This document shows positions 46,885-56,175 of a stretch of DNA of 64,000 nucleotides, in pieces. The first letter of the stretch is position 1; each line of letters begins with the position of its first letter. The position numbers and the translations under genes were made by a program. The stretch is from Bacteroidota bacterium (lineage in GTDB: Bacteria > Bacteroidota > Bacteroidia > NS11-12g > UBA955): assembly GCA_024103355.1 (NCBI GenBank), contig JAGFIU010000042.1, positions 1 through 64,000 of the forward strand, in the 5' to 3' direction. The notes under the pieces are model-generated. The model made no database searches. It saw nothing but the letters and a program-made list of their open reading frames with translations, and was not told where the DNA came from.

Positions 46885-47271
46885 TTATTTTTCAAGTTGT
46901 TTGATAACCTTTTGTTGTAATTCAATGATTAAGGATTGATAATCAAAAATTTTGCCTGAAGAGCTAGTAGAAATACCCGAACCGTTTTGAGTAGAGGAAG
47001 TGCTAATTGGAGCATGTGGATTAGTAATGCCATCAATAAACATTTCACCTTCACCTAGAATTAACCACGAAGGACTAATTCTGTCTCTAAAGGTTTCATA
47101 CACCTTTTGAATTACTTCAAAAGAAGGTTTCTTACCTTTTTCAATGTAATTGTTAATGTTCTGGTAACTTACTTCTAAAGCTTTTCCCATCTTTGATTTG
47201 TTACCGCCATAATAGGTTTCACAAATAATTTTCAATCTTTCACTTGGTGTGTTTAACGCATCAGTTGTCAT
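46885..47271 (-). CDS. XRE-type helix-turn-helix regulator
   Basis: A 128-residue DNA-binding protein. The helix-turn-helix (about 8-60) includes ICETYYGGNKSKMGKALEVSYQNINNYIEKGKKPSFEVIQKVYETF, followed by the segment SWLILGEGEMF seen in repressor-like XRE proteins of this phylum. A Ser/Thr-rich linker (about 80-105) leads to a short C-terminal coiled coil (FDYQSLIIELQQKVIKQLEK). The ATG at 47271 is chosen because a full promoter lies between it and the alternative at 47319. No prophage genes are near, so it is probably a host regulator; its target is unknown. Confidence 0.85.
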   Translation of the reverse strand: MTTDALNTPSERLKIICETYYGGNKSKMGKALEVSYQNINNYIEKGKKPSFEVIQKVYETFRDRISPSWLILGEGEMFIDGITNPHAPISTSSTQNGSGISTSSSGKIFDYQSLIIELQQKVIKQLEK

Positions 47272-47300
47272 TTGATTTAATTTTAAAATATTTTCGCGTG

Positions 47301-47330
47301 CAAAGTTATTACTTAACAAGAAATTAGCAA
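47301..47330 (-). promoter_or_regulatory. Promoter of the XRE regulator gene
   Basis: On the minus strand, TTG (47328-47330), a 19-base spacer and TAACTTTG (47301-47308), 29 bases upstream of the ATG at 47271. A full consensus match. Confidence 0.65.
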
Positions 47331-48850: not shown

Positions 48851-48987
48851 TTTTGTTTGGCTTGACAAATCAGATATCAAATTTGAAAAAATGAAATTGG
48901 ATGCAGGCAACATTTTTAAACTTTATAGTGTCTTTGAGTGTGTAAATACCTGATTTTTGCTGTCGGTTATTGCCTTATTGAACCGCG

Positions 48988-49524
48988 ATGATGAAAGAGG
49001 AAGATATCATACAAGGGTGTATAAAGGAAGACAGACAAGCACAAGAGGTGTTATACAAAAAATATGCTCCTCGTTTGTTGGGTCTGTGCTGCCGATATGC
49101 AAACGATATGCTTGAGGCGGAAGATATCCTACAAGAGGGGTTCATTAAGGTCTTTGACAATATTTCGAGTTTTAGCGGAAAAGGGTCCTTTGAAGGATGG
49201 CTCAAAAGAATTATGGTGAATGAAGCACTCAATAAAATAAGAGCAAGAAAGAAAAATCTTGATTTTACTGATAATTATGAAGTGGATGTTCAGGATGCCG
49301 GTGTCCCAACAGATAAAATCCAGTATAAGGAATTATTAAATGCACTCAACTCTATGCCGGATGGGTACAGAGCGGTATTTAATATGTATGCAATAGAAGG
49401 TTATAGCCATTTGGAGATTGCGCAAATGTTAAATATTAGTCATGCAACCTCGCGCTCTCAATATGCTAAAGCTAAGAATTATTTGATAAAACTGATTAAT
49501 GAATTAGAGAAAGTAAAATTATGA
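48988..49524 (+). CDS. ECF-type RNA polymerase sigma factor
   Basis: A 178-residue sigma-70 family protein with only regions 2 and 4. Region 2 (about 20-90) has LYKKYAPRLLGLCCRYANDMLEAEDILQEGFIKVFDNI and SFEGWLKRIMVNEALNKIR. Region 4 (about 118-172) has ALNSMPDGYRAVFNMYAIEGYSHLEIAQMLNISHATSRSQYAKAKNYL. It directs RNA polymerase to a stress or envelope regulon. Its stop overlaps the next ATG by four bases (ATGA), so the downstream protein is made together with it and is the likely anti-sigma factor. Confidence 0.95.
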   Translation: MMKEEDIIQGCIKEDRQAQEVLYKKYAPRLLGLCCRYANDMLEAEDILQEGFIKVFDNISSFSGKGSFEGWLKRIMVNEALNKIRARKKNLDFTDNYEVDVQDAGVPTDKIQYKELLNALNSMPDGYRAVFNMYAIEGYSHLEIAQMLNISHATSRSQYAKAKNYLIKLINELEKVKL

Positions 49525-50966
49525 ATGAAAATAACTTTGAAGAGTTTGTAAAAAAACAATTTGAAAACTTTGAAATTAAGCCTTCCACAGGTTTGATGGA
49601 AAAGATTTTTGATAAAAGGCTTGGTAGGAGGAAAGACAGTACTTTTATATATAATAGTAAAGCTATTGCCTTGTTGCTTGTAGGGTTGATATTGAGTGGT
49701 TCTTGGATTTTTATTAATTCAAAAAAGAATAATTCAAAATCAGTTAAAGAAAAGACAGTTTTTGAAAATAGTATTAACATAGCCAATGCAAATAAGAAAA
49801 ATACACTGAGAAAGCCTCATACAATAAAGTCGGAAAACCCTTCTGATAATACTAATCAAAATCAGGCTTATTCACAAGAGAAGTTAGAAAAGAAAAATGT
49901 GATTGAAGAATCTTCAGACCATTCTTACATATCGCAAAAAAAACATCCAATATCTAAATCAAGTAATGAGGATAAAACTCATCAACGGCCTATTTCTAAA
50001 TCAAGTATTGAAAATATAATTAGTAATACAACAAAGGAGAATGAAGATAAGTATTTGTTAGTCAATAATATTGACGAAATCAATGCTAGAACACAAGAAT
50101 TGTCAAGAGGAAGAATCTTAAGGACTTCATCATTGTATTATCAATTGCCACTTCGCACTCTCAAAAATACATTTTATCCGACACTCTCTCTCGAAAAAGC
50201 ATTTATCAAACCGGAAGATTTAAGGTACTCACCCATACCCTACAAAAGACCTCGAAGGCTTTATGCTTCATCAATTTGGCTTAAAGAAATGGAGATTAAT
50301 CTTGGTGTAGGCAAATGGTTTGTACATAATCAACTTGACCAATTTAATGAGGCATCACCTTTCTCAATCTCAGCGAATATTAGAACAAGATTTAAAATTA
50401 ACGAGCAGTTTAATGTAATTTCAGGAGTTAACTATCTTTATAGGAATTCTTCAGTTAATTATAATAGAACTAATAATAAAGAAATTTTGAGCATTGATAC
50501 AATCCATGGATTTATCATTGACCCGGGTGCTCCACCGATCCCTATAGTAAGATATGACAGTTCTTTCTATACAATTACAGAATATTATCATGGGACAGGA
50601 CAGAATGAATATCATCGTTTTTCACTGCCTATCGGTGTTGAGTACAATACGTATTTTGGCAAGAACTTGATATATATAAATGGCGGTATATTAATTACTC
50701 TCACAACATATGATAGAGGAAGATGGATTGAAGATAACAATCAAGAAATAAAGATGTTCAATGGTAAATCAAATCAAATTTCGAGCAGTCTCAATTCCGG
50801 TTACTTTATGGGACTAGGATATGGATATACAATAATCCCTGAACTTATTTGGATTATTGAATCTGATTTCTCTGTATGGAATTTTAAGTCTAATCCTTTG
50901 GGAAATAAGGCTAAGACAAGAATACTTAATGTGGGGTTGAACACAGGGGTTAGATGGAAATTTTAG
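49521..50966 (+). CDS. Probable dual membrane-spanning anti-sigma factor: cytoplasmic head, one helix, linker, outer-membrane barrel
   Basis: A 481-residue protein. Residues 1-47 are cytoplasmic and charged (NNFEEFVKKQFENFEIKPS). One membrane helix lies at about 48-66 (AIALLLVGLILSGSWIF). A polar, low-complexity linker runs to about 190, with the near-repeat PISKSSNE / PISKSSIE. From about 255 the sequence alternates like a small beta-barrel (MEINLGVGKWFV, FSISANIRTRFKINEQFNVISGVNYLYRN, HRFSLPIGVEYNTYFGKNLIYINGGILITL, TRILNVGLNTGVRWKF) and ends in Phe, the usual last residue of outer-membrane barrels. There is no signal peptide. This plan matches the Dma anti-sigma factors known from Bacteroides, which cross both membranes. 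The four-base overlap with the sigma gene supports the pairing. Confidence 0.75.
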   Translation: MNENNFEEFVKKQFENFEIKPSTGLMEKIFDKRLGRRKDSTFIYNSKAIALLLVGLILSGSWIFINSKKNNSKSVKEKTVFENSINIANANKKNTLRKPHTIKSENPSDNTNQNQAYSQEKLEKKNVIEESSDHSYISQKKHPISKSSNEDKTHQRPISKSSIENIISNTTKENEDKYLLVNNIDEINARTQELSRGRILRTSSLYYQLPLRTLKNTFYPTLSLEKAFIKPEDLRYSPIPYKRPRRLYASSIWLKEMEINLGVGKWFVHNQLDQFNEASPFSISANIRTRFKINEQFNVISGVNYLYRNSSVNYNRTNNKEILSIDTIHGFIIDPGAPPIPIVRYDSSFYTITEYYHGTGQNEYHRFSLPIGVEYNTYFGKNLIYINGGILITLTTYDRGRWIEDNNQEIKMFNGKSNQISSSLNSGYFMGLGYGYTIIPELIWIIESDFSVWNFKSNPLGNKAKTRILNVGLNTGVRWKF

Positions 50967-50996: not shown

Positions 50997-52532
50997 ATGA
51001 AGCATTGGGGTATTTTGATATGCTGTGTTTTTACATTTGTTTTGTCGTTTGCACAAAATAATCCATTTCAAATTAAGAGCCCTAAAATGGATTTTAATCT
51101 TAGTCCTAATGGACTCTATATAGCACAGCCGAGTGCATCTGTTTTTTTCCCTACTTCTTCTCTAAACCCAATTATTTCAAATTCAGGAATTTGGTACTCC
51201 GGCAGAATGCCTGATAACAAAGTTAGAGCTTCCATTAATCTTGATAACAGTCTTTCTGATTTTACATTTGGACCACTTTCGATGTCTCAATCAGAGAATC
51301 TAGATAGTGTTAAGTGGTTTAAAACATGGGTTATCACAAAGAGCGAAATTCAAACCCATCTTAATAAATATAAAGAACCGGGATATTCAGTGCCAGACAA
51401 CATAAAAAATTGGCCTGTAAATCCCCCACCTAATTATGACGGGATTCTAACTCCGTTTGCAGATTGGAATGGCAACGGATTATATGAGCCAGAGCTAGGG
51501 GAGGCTCCGGTTGTTGAGGGAGATTTAAATGTATTTGCTGTTTATAATGATTATAGAAGTAATAGAATCAGACTAGATAGTGGATTAGGTGTTGAAATCA
51601 AACATTTTGCATATATTATTTTTAACCCTGAAATAAATCAATTTCTCATTCTCAATAGGGTGCTATTAACCAATAGAAATAATTTTGATATTCATTCATT
51701 CAAACTTGGATTATATGCCGAATTGTTGTTGGGTGAAGGGACTTCTAATTTTATTAAAAGCTTTCCTAAACAGAATGCTATTACCGGATATAACATGAAT
51801 GTGTCCGACAGTTTTTATGGAAACCATATTCCGGCAGTTGCATTTATCTCTCTTAATAGAGATTTAGCCGGTACAATGTACCTTAGCCATGATAATAATC
51901 CCATTACCGGATATCCAGAATCTGTTGAACAGATAAATAACTATTTATCAGGAAAATGGAAAAATGGTAAGTCATTGACATATGGTGGGAATGGGATTGA
52001 TGGTAGTACTTTGACAAGATTTGTATATCCGGGAGGAGGAGATCCTGACAATCATCAGTTTGAGTGGGTTGAGGAAAACTCGGGAAGCACACCCGGTAAA
52101 AGAAGTGCTTTGATTGTCTTTGACAGTATATTATTCAAACAAAATTCAACAGAGGAATTTCGTTTTGCATATCAAATTATTCCTGATGTAAACAATGATA
52201 CTACACTAATAAAGGAGCATATTATTCAAACTCAAACGCTTTATGGTAATGGCGAATTGACCAATATTTTTGATATCCATAATGCAAAACAGAGAATACA
52301 GATTTACCCAAATCCTATATCTTTTAATTCAGAAGTATTTGTTCAATCTGAATATTCAATATTATCACTTTTGATTCGAGATTTGACAGGTAGAATCGTA
52401 TTCTCATCACATTATAATGATCAGAGCCGCAAGAAGTTAATTGGTATTAATCCAAAATTAAAAAAAGGGATTTATTTAATTCAATTAACCACAAGTTATG
52501 GGTTGACTCATGCGAAATTACTTGTTAATTGA
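50997..52532 (+). CDS. Type IX secretion cargo with type A C-terminal sorting domain
   Basis: A 511-residue exported protein. The signal peptide (about 1-20, FVLSFAQ) is followed by a body of unknown fold that contains many Gly, Pro and aromatic residues (FADWNGNGLYEPELGEAPVVEGD; DGSTLTRFVYPGGGDPDNHQFEW). The last 80 residues are the type A sorting domain: IQIYPNPISFNSEVFVQ, LLIRDLTGRIVFSS and KKGIYLIQLTT. It starts 30 bases after the anti-sigma-like gene in the same direction, so it may be in the same regulon. Its function is not recognised. Confidence 0.9.
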   Translation: MKHWGILICCVFTFVLSFAQNNPFQIKSPKMDFNLSPNGLYIAQPSASVFFPTSSLNPIISNSGIWYSGRMPDNKVRASINLDNSLSDFTFGPLSMSQSENLDSVKWFKTWVITKSEIQTHLNKYKEPGYSVPDNIKNWPVNPPPNYDGILTPFADWNGNGLYEPELGEAPVVEGDLNVFAVYNDYRSNRIRLDSGLGVEIKHFAYIIFNPEINQFLILNRVLLTNRNNFDIHSFKLGLYAELLLGEGTSNFIKSFPKQNAITGYNMNVSDSFYGNHIPAVAFISLNRDLAGTMYLSHDNNPITGYPESVEQINNYLSGKWKNGKSLTYGGNGIDGSTLTRFVYPGGGDPDNHQFEWVEENSGSTPGKRSALIVFDSILFKQNSTEEFRFAYQIIPDVNNDTTLIKEHIIQTQTLYGNGELTNIFDIHNAKQRIQIYPNPISFNSEVFVQSEYSILSLLIRDLTGRIVFSSHYNDQSRKKLIGINPKLKKGIYLIQLTTSYGLTHAKLLVN

Positions 52533-52608: not shown

Positions 52609-55600
52609 GTGAAAGAGAATCTACGGATAGGCTTTTTAATCGGATTCTTCCTAGTGCTAAGCTTTCAAAGTAAAGCAAGTCATGTACTTGGAAGTGAGTT
52701 GTACTTTAAATTTACCGATGCTTTCAATTTGCAGTTAAATTTGAGAATTTATCGAGATTGCAGCGAATGCAAGTTTAATGGAAATGGAGGTGGAGTAAAT
52801 TCTGATAATTGTTCAGAGATTCCTCCCATTGAAGTGTATGGAGTTGATAATATTACCGGAAAGAAAGTTTATCTAACCTCTGTATCTATTACACGAACCG
52901 GAATACAAAATATTACAAATACTTGCGTTGGATTAACAAATGCATGTGATATAACTGCAAGTCCTGATTTTGTGAGAGGGATGGAAGTACATAATTTCAT
53001 TGCCGGATTTAATACCCAGACCTATGAGAGTCAGGGATATTGTCATTTTTATTTTGTTACTTCAATCTTTTCTCGTTCTGACGAAATCACGCCTCCCGGC
53101 TCCCCAATTGAAAAATTCTTTAATTATTCTGAATTGAATTTCTGTTCCGGCATCAAATCAGGCACAGTAAACCTTTCTAATGAGCCTAATTTTATGGTAA
53201 GCGTTGGTTCCCCAATTTATCATTCACCGGGGATTAATCAAGGTGATGCTGACAGTATTTCAGTTAAGTTAGTTCCTGCTCTCAGTGCTTTTGGCCAAGA
53301 AATTAGTTATATCTCAGGCTATAGTTTCAAGTTGCCATTTATGGTGTTAGGTTGTGGCAGTATTGGATGTCAAGCGGAACCTTCAGCAGAACCACCAACA
53401 GGTTTCTACTTTGATGAGAATACAGGAAACACCATTTTTACTCCTCAATTAACAGGCCAAGTTGGAACTTTAGTTTATGAAATAACTAAATGGAAAAAAG
53501 ATGCATCAAACCAATTTTATGCAGTTAGCAAGATGCGAAGAGACTATTTGATAAAAACATACTCCAATGCGAATACTGAACCAAAAATTGATTATAGCCC
53601 TTCAATATTTAAACTCTGTACAGAGACAAAGTTCTCCTTAAATGTTTCTATAAAAGATGGGCAAAACATATCGCTGAGTATGAGTAACTTGATTGCAGGA
53701 ATGAGTTTCTCTCAAACCTCCCATACAGCACCAACCTATAACCTCTTATTTACATGGACTCCGCCCTCTGATGCTGCCGGAAAAATATACTTTATCACTG
53801 TGAAGGCTCAAGATGAACATTGTCCCATAAATGCAATAAGTACAAAGACTTTTATTCTAAAAGTTGCTAAAACACCTTCCTTATCAATCTCTCTTGACCA
53901 AAAGGCATGCGGTAATATTGAATTAAAAGCAATGCCTTCTACATATCCCGATAATATGTATCTATGGAGAGTTACTTATCCCAATACTGTGACAAAAGAA
54001 TATTGGGGTAAAACCCAAAAAATCCAACATTTATCAGGAGGAACACTTAATCTTGAATTAGGGCTAAATCAAGTTTGTAAAGGCACAACTGTATCTTCGA
54101 TTTCTCTACCAACATACACTATCCCAAAGTTTTCTCTTGATTCTGAATATATTTCTTGTCTTGGTACCAATATTACAGTAACACCCACGGGTATATTAGG
54201 GAATTCTCCATTTAAATACTATTGGAATGATTCTCTGGGTTCTTCATTCCTTGTGTTATCTGCAGGAAAAGATTACCCATTAACTGTTAAGATTGAAGAC
54301 GTTGATGGATGTACAAACAAAGTCTCTACAGTAATTAAGTCATATCCAATATTAAAGCCTATTACAAGGGATTCATCTTTTTGCGCCTATGACTCAGGAA
54401 GGTTTGTTATTAATGAACTTTTAGAAAATTCTTATTCGACAGTTTCAAATGGTTTTGAGTTGTTAGGAGGAGGAACACAATTATTTAATGATAACGGAGA
54501 ATGGTATTTTATGAAACAAAACTTCTCCAAGGAGTTTATTACTTTTAGGGCTTGGATTCAAGATGAACATGCCTGCAAATATTATGATACATTTAGAATT
54601 TATAAGACTTCGGGTTTGAAATTTTCTCAACTCAAAATTGGTACTTTTTGTATGTCGGAAAAGAAAGTAAACTTAATTGATTTGTTAGATTTGAAGGAGA
54701 ATGACGGAATCTTTGAATCGATTGTTTATGGTGCAATTGAGAATAATAATATTCTAAATCTTTCCGCATTTACTCATCCAGGTACCTATGATATTTATTT
54801 TATCAGTTCCCCAAAATATTGTTCTAAAGTTACTACACTTCAGATTGAAATTGTTGCATCACCTGATATCTCTTGGATATCTAATCTAAATGATAAAGTA
54901 TGTAAGAATAGTGATGTTGTTTCTTTAGGAGGAGAGGGACAAGGAGGAACTTGGACTGGAGTTGGTGTTACAGAAAATATTTTCAATCCACAAGTGCCTG
55001 AAGTCGTTGCTGGACAAGATTATCAGTTGATTTATTATGTTCAGGAACCAATTTTAGGGTGTTCCTCAACTGATACTTTATTAATTCATGTCTATGATGC
55101 GCCTTCTTTTGATCTCATATTTACTGATAGTGCAAAGAATCCAATTACAAAAGAAGCTTGTATAAATCAGTATGTTGCTATCGAAGTAAATAGTTTGTCT
55201 AATAGTCAAAATTACCCTCCAAATTTCAGATATAACATAGAAGTTAGCAAAGGTGTCCTTCATCCCAATTTTCGGTTACTTCCTGATAGTTTAGGAGGAG
55301 TTCACAGAGTGAGCTTAGTTACAGAAAGCGATTTATGCCCGGATGTTTTTGATTACGATAGTATTAATTTTGAAAGACTCCCTTCAATATATGTCAATAC
55401 TTCAGAAACTGAGTTTTGTGAGAATGATAAAGATATAACTATTGAATACTTCTCTGAGAATACAAATACTATTGATTGGTATTTGAATTGGTTGAAAGTT
55501 GGTGAATCAAATAATAGTAAAGGTGTTTTCCAGGTTAAGGATATCAAGAGCGGGTCATATATATTTAGTGCTAAATTATCAAATAACGTTTGCAAAAATG

Positions 55601-56175
55601 AGGTTGAATTAATTAATCCGATAGTAATTAATCCTGTTCCGGAACCTATTATATACGTTACACCAACTCAATATGTGCCTGTTGATATGCGATTTGTATC
55701 AATAAGCGATAAAGGGAATTATCTGAGTCAAAAGATTGAAAGAACATGGACAATCGAGGGTGTTGTTTATGAAAATGTAAGTAGTTTAACGCATAGGATT
55801 CAGACAGAAAGTGGAGAAATTCCAATTAATTTATTTGTCAAGAACGAATTTGGGTGTTCTGCTGAGACAAAGAGCCTTCTTTATATTTCTCCACCGTTGG
55901 ATTTGTATATTCCTAATGCATTTAGCCCTGATGGTGTCGGTCCTGAGAGTAATAACACTTTTAAAGTAAACACCGAACATGTGAAAGATTTTAACATGGT
56001 TATATATAATAAATGGGGTGCAGTAGTTTTCCACACAACTGACCCAACAAAAGGATGGGATGGGACCTTCTTAGGCGCTGAATTACCAAGTGATGTTTTT
56101 ATCTATTATATCAAAGTTGTAAATCAGTTAGGTGGAACACGAGAGTTCAGAGGTACAGTTACACTCTTGAGATAA
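52609..56175 (+). CDS. Type IX secretion cargo with type B (gliding-motility) C-terminal sorting domain
   Basis: A 1188-residue surface protein. The start is GTG at 52609. The signal peptide ends near SKASHVLG; the mature start ASHVLGSELYFKFTDAFNLQLNLRIYRDC is typical of a large Bacteroidota family. The middle is a string of beta-sandwich modules rich in paired Cys. The end has YIPNAFSPDGVGPESNNTFKVN and GTFLGAELPSDVFIYYIKVVNQLGGTREFRGTVTLLR, the type B sorting domain. It follows the type A cargo by 76 bases. Probable role: adhesion or surface layer; not proven. Confidence 0.92.
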   Translation: MKENLRIGFLIGFFLVLSFQSKASHVLGSELYFKFTDAFNLQLNLRIYRDCSECKFNGNGGGVNSDNCSEIPPIEVYGVDNITGKKVYLTSVSITRTGIQNITNTCVGLTNACDITASPDFVRGMEVHNFIAGFNTQTYESQGYCHFYFVTSIFSRSDEITPPGSPIEKFFNYSELNFCSGIKSGTVNLSNEPNFMVSVGSPIYHSPGINQGDADSISVKLVPALSAFGQEISYISGYSFKLPFMVLGCGSIGCQAEPSAEPPTGFYFDENTGNTIFTPQLTGQVGTLVYEITKWKKDASNQFYAVSKMRRDYLIKTYSNANTEPKIDYSPSIFKLCTETKFSLNVSIKDGQNISLSMSNLIAGMSFSQTSHTAPTYNLLFTWTPPSDAAGKIYFITVKAQDEHCPINAISTKTFILKVAKTPSLSISLDQKACGNIELKAMPSTYPDNMYLWRVTYPNTVTKEYWGKTQKIQHLSGGTLNLELGLNQVCKGTTVSSISLPTYTIPKFSLDSEYISCLGTNITVTPTGILGNSPFKYYWNDSLGSSFLVLSAGKDYPLTVKIEDVDGCTNKVSTVIKSYPILKPITRDSSFCAYDSGRFVINELLENSYSTVSNGFELLGGGTQLFNDNGEWYFMKQNFSKEFITFRAWIQDEHACKYYDTFRIYKTSGLKFSQLKIGTFCMSEKKVNLIDLLDLKENDGIFESIVYGAIENNNILNLSAFTHPGTYDIYFISSPKYCSKVTTLQIEIVASPDISWISNLNDKVCKNSDVVSLGGEGQGGTWTGVGVTENIFNPQVPEVVAGQDYQLIYYVQEPILGCSSTDTLLIHVYDAPSFDLIFTDSAKNPITKEACINQYVAIEVNSLSNSQNYPPNFRYNIEVSKGVLHPNFRLLPDSLGGVHRVSLVTESDLCPDVFDYDSINFERLPSIYVNTSETEFCENDKDITIEYFSENTNTIDWYLNWLKVGESNNSKGVFQVKDIKSGSYIFSAKLSNNVCKNEVELINPIVINPVPEPIIYVTPTQYVPVDMRFVSISDKGNYLSQKIERTWTIEGVVYENVSSLTHRIQTESGEIPINLFVKNEFGCSAETKSLLYISPPLDLYIPNAFSPDGVGPESNNTFKVNTEHVKDFNMVIYNKWGAVVFHTTDPTKGWDGTFLGAELPSDVFIYYIKVVNQLGGTREFRGTVTLLR

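Follow-up and report, generated by a model that had tools for sequence, protein, structure and literature searches.

Gene content of the operon and predicted structure of ORF2

The window, a 64,000-nucleotide stretch of Bacteroidota contig JAGFIU010000042.1, carries on its forward strand a four-gene operon that begins with an ECF sigma factor gene (48988..49524, 178 aa) and continues with ORF2 (49521..50966, 481 aa), which overlaps it by 4 nt and is predicted from this overlap, its modelled structure and its profile match to encode a Dma-like transenvelope anti-sigma factor. The initial annotation of this DNA as an ECF sigma gene was borne out by both Pfam sigma domains (Sigma70_r2, 2.4e-19; Sigma70_r4_2, 3.7e-13), and these domains together with the tree described below place the protein in the Das (Dma-associated sigma) clade. 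The annotation had also read the next genes as type IX cargo, and sorting domains of the type IX secretion system (T9SS) were found in both, above the Pfam cut-off. The third gene (50997..52532, forward strand, 511 aa) encodes a type-A cargo protein with a sorting domain at residues 436–510 (PF18962, 2.1e-8), and the fourth (52609..56175, forward strand, 1188 aa) encodes a giant type-B cargo protein of the ASHVLG... family (PF13585, 8.5e-12; TIGR04131). In the third protein, the C-terminal domain is similar in fold to one 75-residue chain of 8gl8, a T9SS translocon structure (TM 0.80), and a beta-sandwich region weakly resembles solved sugar-active enzymes. The SprA translocon is encoded in the window genome (SprA_N, 2.5e-159). 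Near the operon, a small ORF on the reverse strand (46885-47319) gave weak, below-cut-off helix-turn-helix and YdaS-like matches.

ORF2 has no significant match in Pfam or NCBIfam. Its hydropathy profile contains one hydrophobic segment, residues 40–67, and an AlphaFold2 model built with 24 homologues gives the same succession of parts that had been claimed for it, namely a head, one helix, a linker and a C-terminal barrel ending in Phe. The head (residues 1–40, 49521..49640), a predicted cytoplasmic sigma-binding segment delimited by the model and by head profiles, is modelled as short helices at 6–15 and 25–35 with a low pLDDT of about 60. It is followed by the transmembrane helix (residues 41–66, 49641..49718) and by a predicted disordered periplasmic tether (residues 68–253, 49722..50279), in which pLDDT lies below 50 at 68–244. 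The C-terminal half (residues 254–481, 50280..50963) is a predicted outer-membrane beta-barrel with strands spanning 254–480 at a pLDDT of mostly 75–96, and eight strands can be counted in the DSSP string of the model. The top solved Foldseek matches include the closed eight-stranded barrels of OmpA and NspA (target-normalised TM 0.65 and 0.66), so that the closed barrel on which the initial reading depended is predicted as a fold of that type. The even number of strands and an N-terminus entering from the periplasm fit, in the model, an inner-membrane anchor of the same chain.

Two very long strands of the modelled barrel, 297–332 and 340–379, make a protruding beta3-beta4 hairpin (residues 313–362, 50457..50606), which is predicted to be extracellular and holds a conserved P335/D346 motif. 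P335 is invariant and D346 nearly invariant across the 24 homologues, and it is in this region that conservation of the family is highest within the window's order; a partner could dock there. A single-sequence search recovered homologues that likewise lie next to and overlap a sigma gene in 24 of 57 relatives, and by profile they are widespread in the class; because such neighbours and similar overlaps recur, ORF2 is not a chance reading frame. Frames of about 200–300 aa that match the Dma-like profile in the head and helix only also occur (L082, L091 and others); judging by these matches, such short proteins are possibly anti-sigma factors whose outer end is different or absent.

Sigma clade and relationship to Bacteroides Dma

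Sigma factors that match the profile of the window sigma family at E <= 1e-28 are present in 57/57 relatives, at 1–11 copies per genome. For comparison with Dma, Bacteroides faecis MAJ27 was used as a stand-in for its close relative B. thetaiotaomicron (SusD fragment 99% identical). Four matching loci were found in B. faecis, two being pairs of sigma and barrel genes and two being sigma-barrel fusions, and the sigma factors of these four loci lead the 25 ECFs listed against the window-sigma-family profile (<=1.7e-37; next 1.2e-22). In a tree of 96 rows, all 71 sigma factors with Dma-like or T9SS C-terminal-domain partners form a single branch (SH-aLRT 99). This Das branch holds the window sigma and the Dma-linked sigmas of B. 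faecis; outside it lie the remaining 21 B. faecis ECFs and four further ECFs from the window genome. By this placement with the B. faecis sigmas, the window sigma is assigned to the Dma-linked (ECF21) group. The pairing of sigma and anti-sigma factor proposed at the outset is backed by synteny and by natural fusions in which sigma, helix, tether and barrel form one chain, as in the Dma3 type; such chains were seen twice in B. faecis (L258, L259) and once elsewhere (L114).

The barrel had been described as distant from known Dma barrels. This is how it appears in pairwise BLAST, where ORF2 matches a Bacteroides Dma at E 0.04, but not in profile comparison, where the barrels of the window's order and of the Bacteroidales Dma set align with an hhalign probability of 99.4 and E 2.2e-21; the Dma reading is upheld, if with divergence. 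The head profiles align as well (window order against class, E 5e-10; against the Bacteroidales set, E 5e-7), and moderate weight is given to these alignments because the head sequences are short. Since the sigma clade, the barrel and head profiles and the anatomy all agree, ORF2 is by every computable feature a Dma protein, though a divergent one.

The window protein shares with Dma (PMC13088901) the head, single helix, disordered tether and C-terminal barrel in the same order, the barrel profile (E 2.2e-21) and an adjacent sigma factor that shares its clade with those of the B. faecis loci. However, its tether is longer, with 185 residues in the window and 139–211 across its order compared with 109–129 in the Bacteroides set, and the region corresponding to hairpin 313–362 spans 50 residues in the window and 46–50 in the order, in contrast to 1–13 in the Bacteroides set. 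The window also differs in its four-gene operon with T9SS cargo and in a host that has the SprA translocon. The Dma3-type single-chain fusions agree with the window pair in sigma clade and in barrel profile, but they join sigma to barrel, whereas sigma and anti-sigma factor are separate, overlapping genes in the window. A small lipoprotein-like gene follows one of the B. faecis pairs, an arrangement that recalls the three genes reported for the dma2 operon, and at another locus (L130:3152-5218) a NigD-like lipoprotein gene, whose closest solved structure is 5bmt, stands directly after the Dma-like gene. In B. thetaiotaomicron, the vesicle phenotype of Dma1 is reported to require nigD1 (PMC13088901).

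Type IX cargo, the sister form and the promoter motif

The T9SS cargo genes are recurrent parts of the operon in the window's order, which goes beyond the initial annotation. In nearly all of the relatives first found, a protein of about 500 residues begins −7 to +33 nt after the sigma/anti-sigma pair, and 18 of 21 homologues of the third gene carry the T9SS type-A domain TIGR04183. The fourth position in relatives is taken by a giant protein, in many cases with an ASH(M/V)(M/L)G start. A total of 91 Das-type sigma loci of the window's order, picked from search hits and thus a non-random sample, were examined, and 61 of them have a complete barrel partner. At 36 of these 61 barrel-type loci the next gene encodes T9SS type-A cargo according to a local profile (about 500 aa in 24 cases and about 800 aa in 12), while at 17 there is no gene within 350 nt downstream. 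Other neighbours of Dma-like genes occur outside the window's order, across the class, and together with the 17 loci that have no near gene they rule out T9SS cargo as a partner that is always required. At three loci outside the order (L120, L123, L124) a gene of about 322–325 aa follows the Dma-like gene, and that of L120 carries a T9SS type-A sorting domain.

In 25 of the 91 loci, a T9SS type-B sorting domain replaces the barrel, while the sigma factor is of the same kind and the head and helix are similar. One locus of this sister form lies in the window genome itself (L058, G000:C48:10000-19183, reverse strand), and further ones were noted at L203–L207 and L210. Pfam detected CHU_C in all six of the sister-form proteins tested, and most sister-form sigma factors make up a subclade within the Das clade of the 96-row tree. 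A giant ORF follows in 25/25 sister loci, with the type-B domain confirmed in 13 and the ORF running past the extracted stretch in the other 12. With its sorting domain, the possible anti-sigma factor of the sister form may also be exported by the T9SS. Anti-sigma factors with a T9SS signal at their end were not described in the literature examined, of which the founding Dma paper was not part.

A predicted promoter of the sigma gene, GGCAACATTTTTAAACTTTATAGTGTCT (48906..48933, forward strand), ends 54 nt before the start codon. The underlying pattern is expected 0.01 times in the window at <=1 mismatch. Its core, GCAAC-N18-GTCT, is found upstream of 17 Das-type sigma genes compared with 0.0 expected in shuffles, and the spacings 16 and 17 occur five times each, mostly in the layout with cargo of about 800 aa. 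When a pattern built from the window site and its nearest relative was run across the genome, the sole exact match was the window site, with nine others at 1–2 mismatches. The total at <=2 mismatches equals that of a reversed-pattern control (10 vs 10), so that the number of 1–2-mismatch sites is uninformative and their placement alone is informative. Two of the nine lie 38 and 22 nt upstream of giant paralogues of the fourth gene, and the chance that two in nine random matches would be so placed is, by a rough count, about one in ten million. Protein homology revealed a third giant paralogue, and the best site at its locus lies about 29 nt upstream of the start, with 3 mismatches. The fourth has no promoter motif at its locus, and no motif precedes the window giant gene itself (52609..56175), which is presumed to be transcribed by read-through.

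The three paralogue sites fit GGCAACATT-N14-TGTCT with identical spacing, and exact matches to this consensus in 372 loci are confined to these three sites and two sigma promoters, a description rather than a test because the consensus was drawn with those sites included. As a sequence motif, the promoter points to a regulon of T9SS surface proteins. A comparable arrangement is described for Flavobacterium psychrophilum, whose T9SS genes and a sigma/anti-sigma pair are preceded by a CGT-box ECF motif (PMC9723704). Two of the giant paralogues (L368 and L370, at the ends of G000:C24 and G000:C5) are cut by the contig end, where the two share the same sequence, so that the assembly breaks at repeats between them.

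A possible signalling route from the surface to the sigma factor

The reading that we regard as probable is a Dma-type switch that reports the state of the outer membrane or of a surface protein to the sigma factor; this sigma would in turn drive expression of its operon and of related genes for T9SS surface proteins. We infer the binding of the head to sigma, the location in both membranes, the trigger and the direction of signalling as follows. The anti-sigma head would keep sigma bound at the inner membrane, and the same chain would span the periplasm through the disordered tether of about 185 residues to the eight-stranded barrel in the outer membrane. There the long conserved surface hairpin probably meets a partner, which may be a ligand at the surface, a T9SS surface protein encoded alongside it, or the condition of the outer membrane itself. 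If the barrel changes, because it fails to assemble or because the partner is lost or gained, the head would relax, and the released sigma factor would read promoters of the GGCAACATT-N14-TGTCT type. Its targets would be the operon in which it is encoded, with sigma, anti-sigma, T9SS-A cargo and T9SS-B giant, and the giant paralogues elsewhere in the genome.

This reading follows from the anatomy, the barrel fold, the shared sigma clade, the homology of barrel and head, and the single chains of sigma and barrel that occur naturally in B. faecis and L114; its T9SS part follows from the cargo at 36 of 61 loci, the SprA gene in the genome, and the motif before sigma genes and three of the four paralogues. 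It draws as well on experiments in B. thetaiotaomicron, where the phenotypes of Dma1 and Dma2 need their sigma factor (PMC13088901). The low confidence of the head model (pLDDT about 60), the window giant gene without a motif and the one paralogue without a motif are points against it, as are the 17 barrel-type loci with no near gene, the other neighbours outside the order and the genome-wide number of mismatched sites, which is no higher than in the reversed control.

That ORF2 might be an ordinary outer-membrane barrel with an unusual cleaved leader, its N-terminus being no anti-sigma domain, would suit its single hydrophobic segment and common eight-stranded barrel type. We consider this highly improbable, as it leaves a conserved head of about 40 residues before the helix and an overlap with the sigma gene kept across the order; moreover, sigma is fused straight to helix, tether and barrel in B. 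faecis and L114, and similar heads precede the T9SS C-terminal-domain partners of the same sigma clade. A different question concerns the relay step, and its answer overlaps with the other readings: the barrel signal might lead to a cut in the tether or the membrane helix, in the manner of RseA, instead of being passed along an intact chain. Regulated proteolysis is common among single-pass anti-sigma factors, as in the RseA/RsiW systems, and a long disordered tether is easily cut, but the alignment of the tether contains no conserved sequence marking a cut site; we judge this route less likely than not.

The locus might also be a generic sensor of outer-membrane or barrel-assembly stress, with T9SS cargo as a co-transcribed output that never signals back to the barrel. 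Adjacent cargo is lacking at 17 of the 61 same-order barrel-type loci, such loci occur in other families too, and Dma in Bacteroides species is tied to vesiculation rather than T9SS (PMC13088901). Yet conservation peaks on the predicted extracellular hairpin, which is longer than in the Bacteroides set, cargo stands directly downstream at 36 of 61 loci, and the chain of the sister form terminates in a T9SS sorting domain; on balance a generic sensor seems a lesser but sizeable possibility. Comparably tentative is an extension of the switch reading to the Das-clade sigma factors of the window's order, each of which would be kept in check by an envelope-spanning anti-sigma factor whose outer end can be swapped, being either a barrel or a T9SS type-B domain; genes for T9SS surface proteins accompany both types. 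Through this end, the progress of T9SS export or the occupancy of surface proteins would be reported directly to sigma, and the sister form would be a T9SS substrate tethered to the inner membrane.

Two known systems invite comparison with the switch reading. In FecI-FecR-FecA, a surface signal reaches an ECF sigma factor through a single-pass anti-sigma factor, which the window system resembles, but the barrel is predicted to belong to the anti-sigma chain itself in the window. A FecR-type system was ruled out by Pfam, since ORF2 has no FecR match and the operon has no TonB receptor, genes 3 and 4 being T9SS cargo. PorA-PorXY-SigP of Porphyromonas gingivalis likewise links a surface protein with a T9SS C-terminal domain to an ECF sigma factor (PMC7712824). 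However, the PorX/PorY two-component system acts upstream of SigP, whereas the predicted link in the window is an anti-sigma factor encoded with its sigma, and PorXY-SigP regulates the T9SS machinery, whereas the predicted targets in the window are cargo.

The locus bears on the question of how Bacteroidota monitor their surface and their type IX secretion. The T9SS wiring and the sister form appear to be new relative to known Dma; the sister form, if real, would be a new coupling of secretion status to transcription. If the switch reading is correct, a single protein would form a line from the outer surface to the sigma factor that is wired to T9SS cargo, and Dma would extend beyond the vesicles of Bacteroides. 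The joining of this gene pair and T9SS proteins in one operon suggests that an anti-sigma factor predicted to reach across both membranes serves the cell to adjust what is displayed at its surface.
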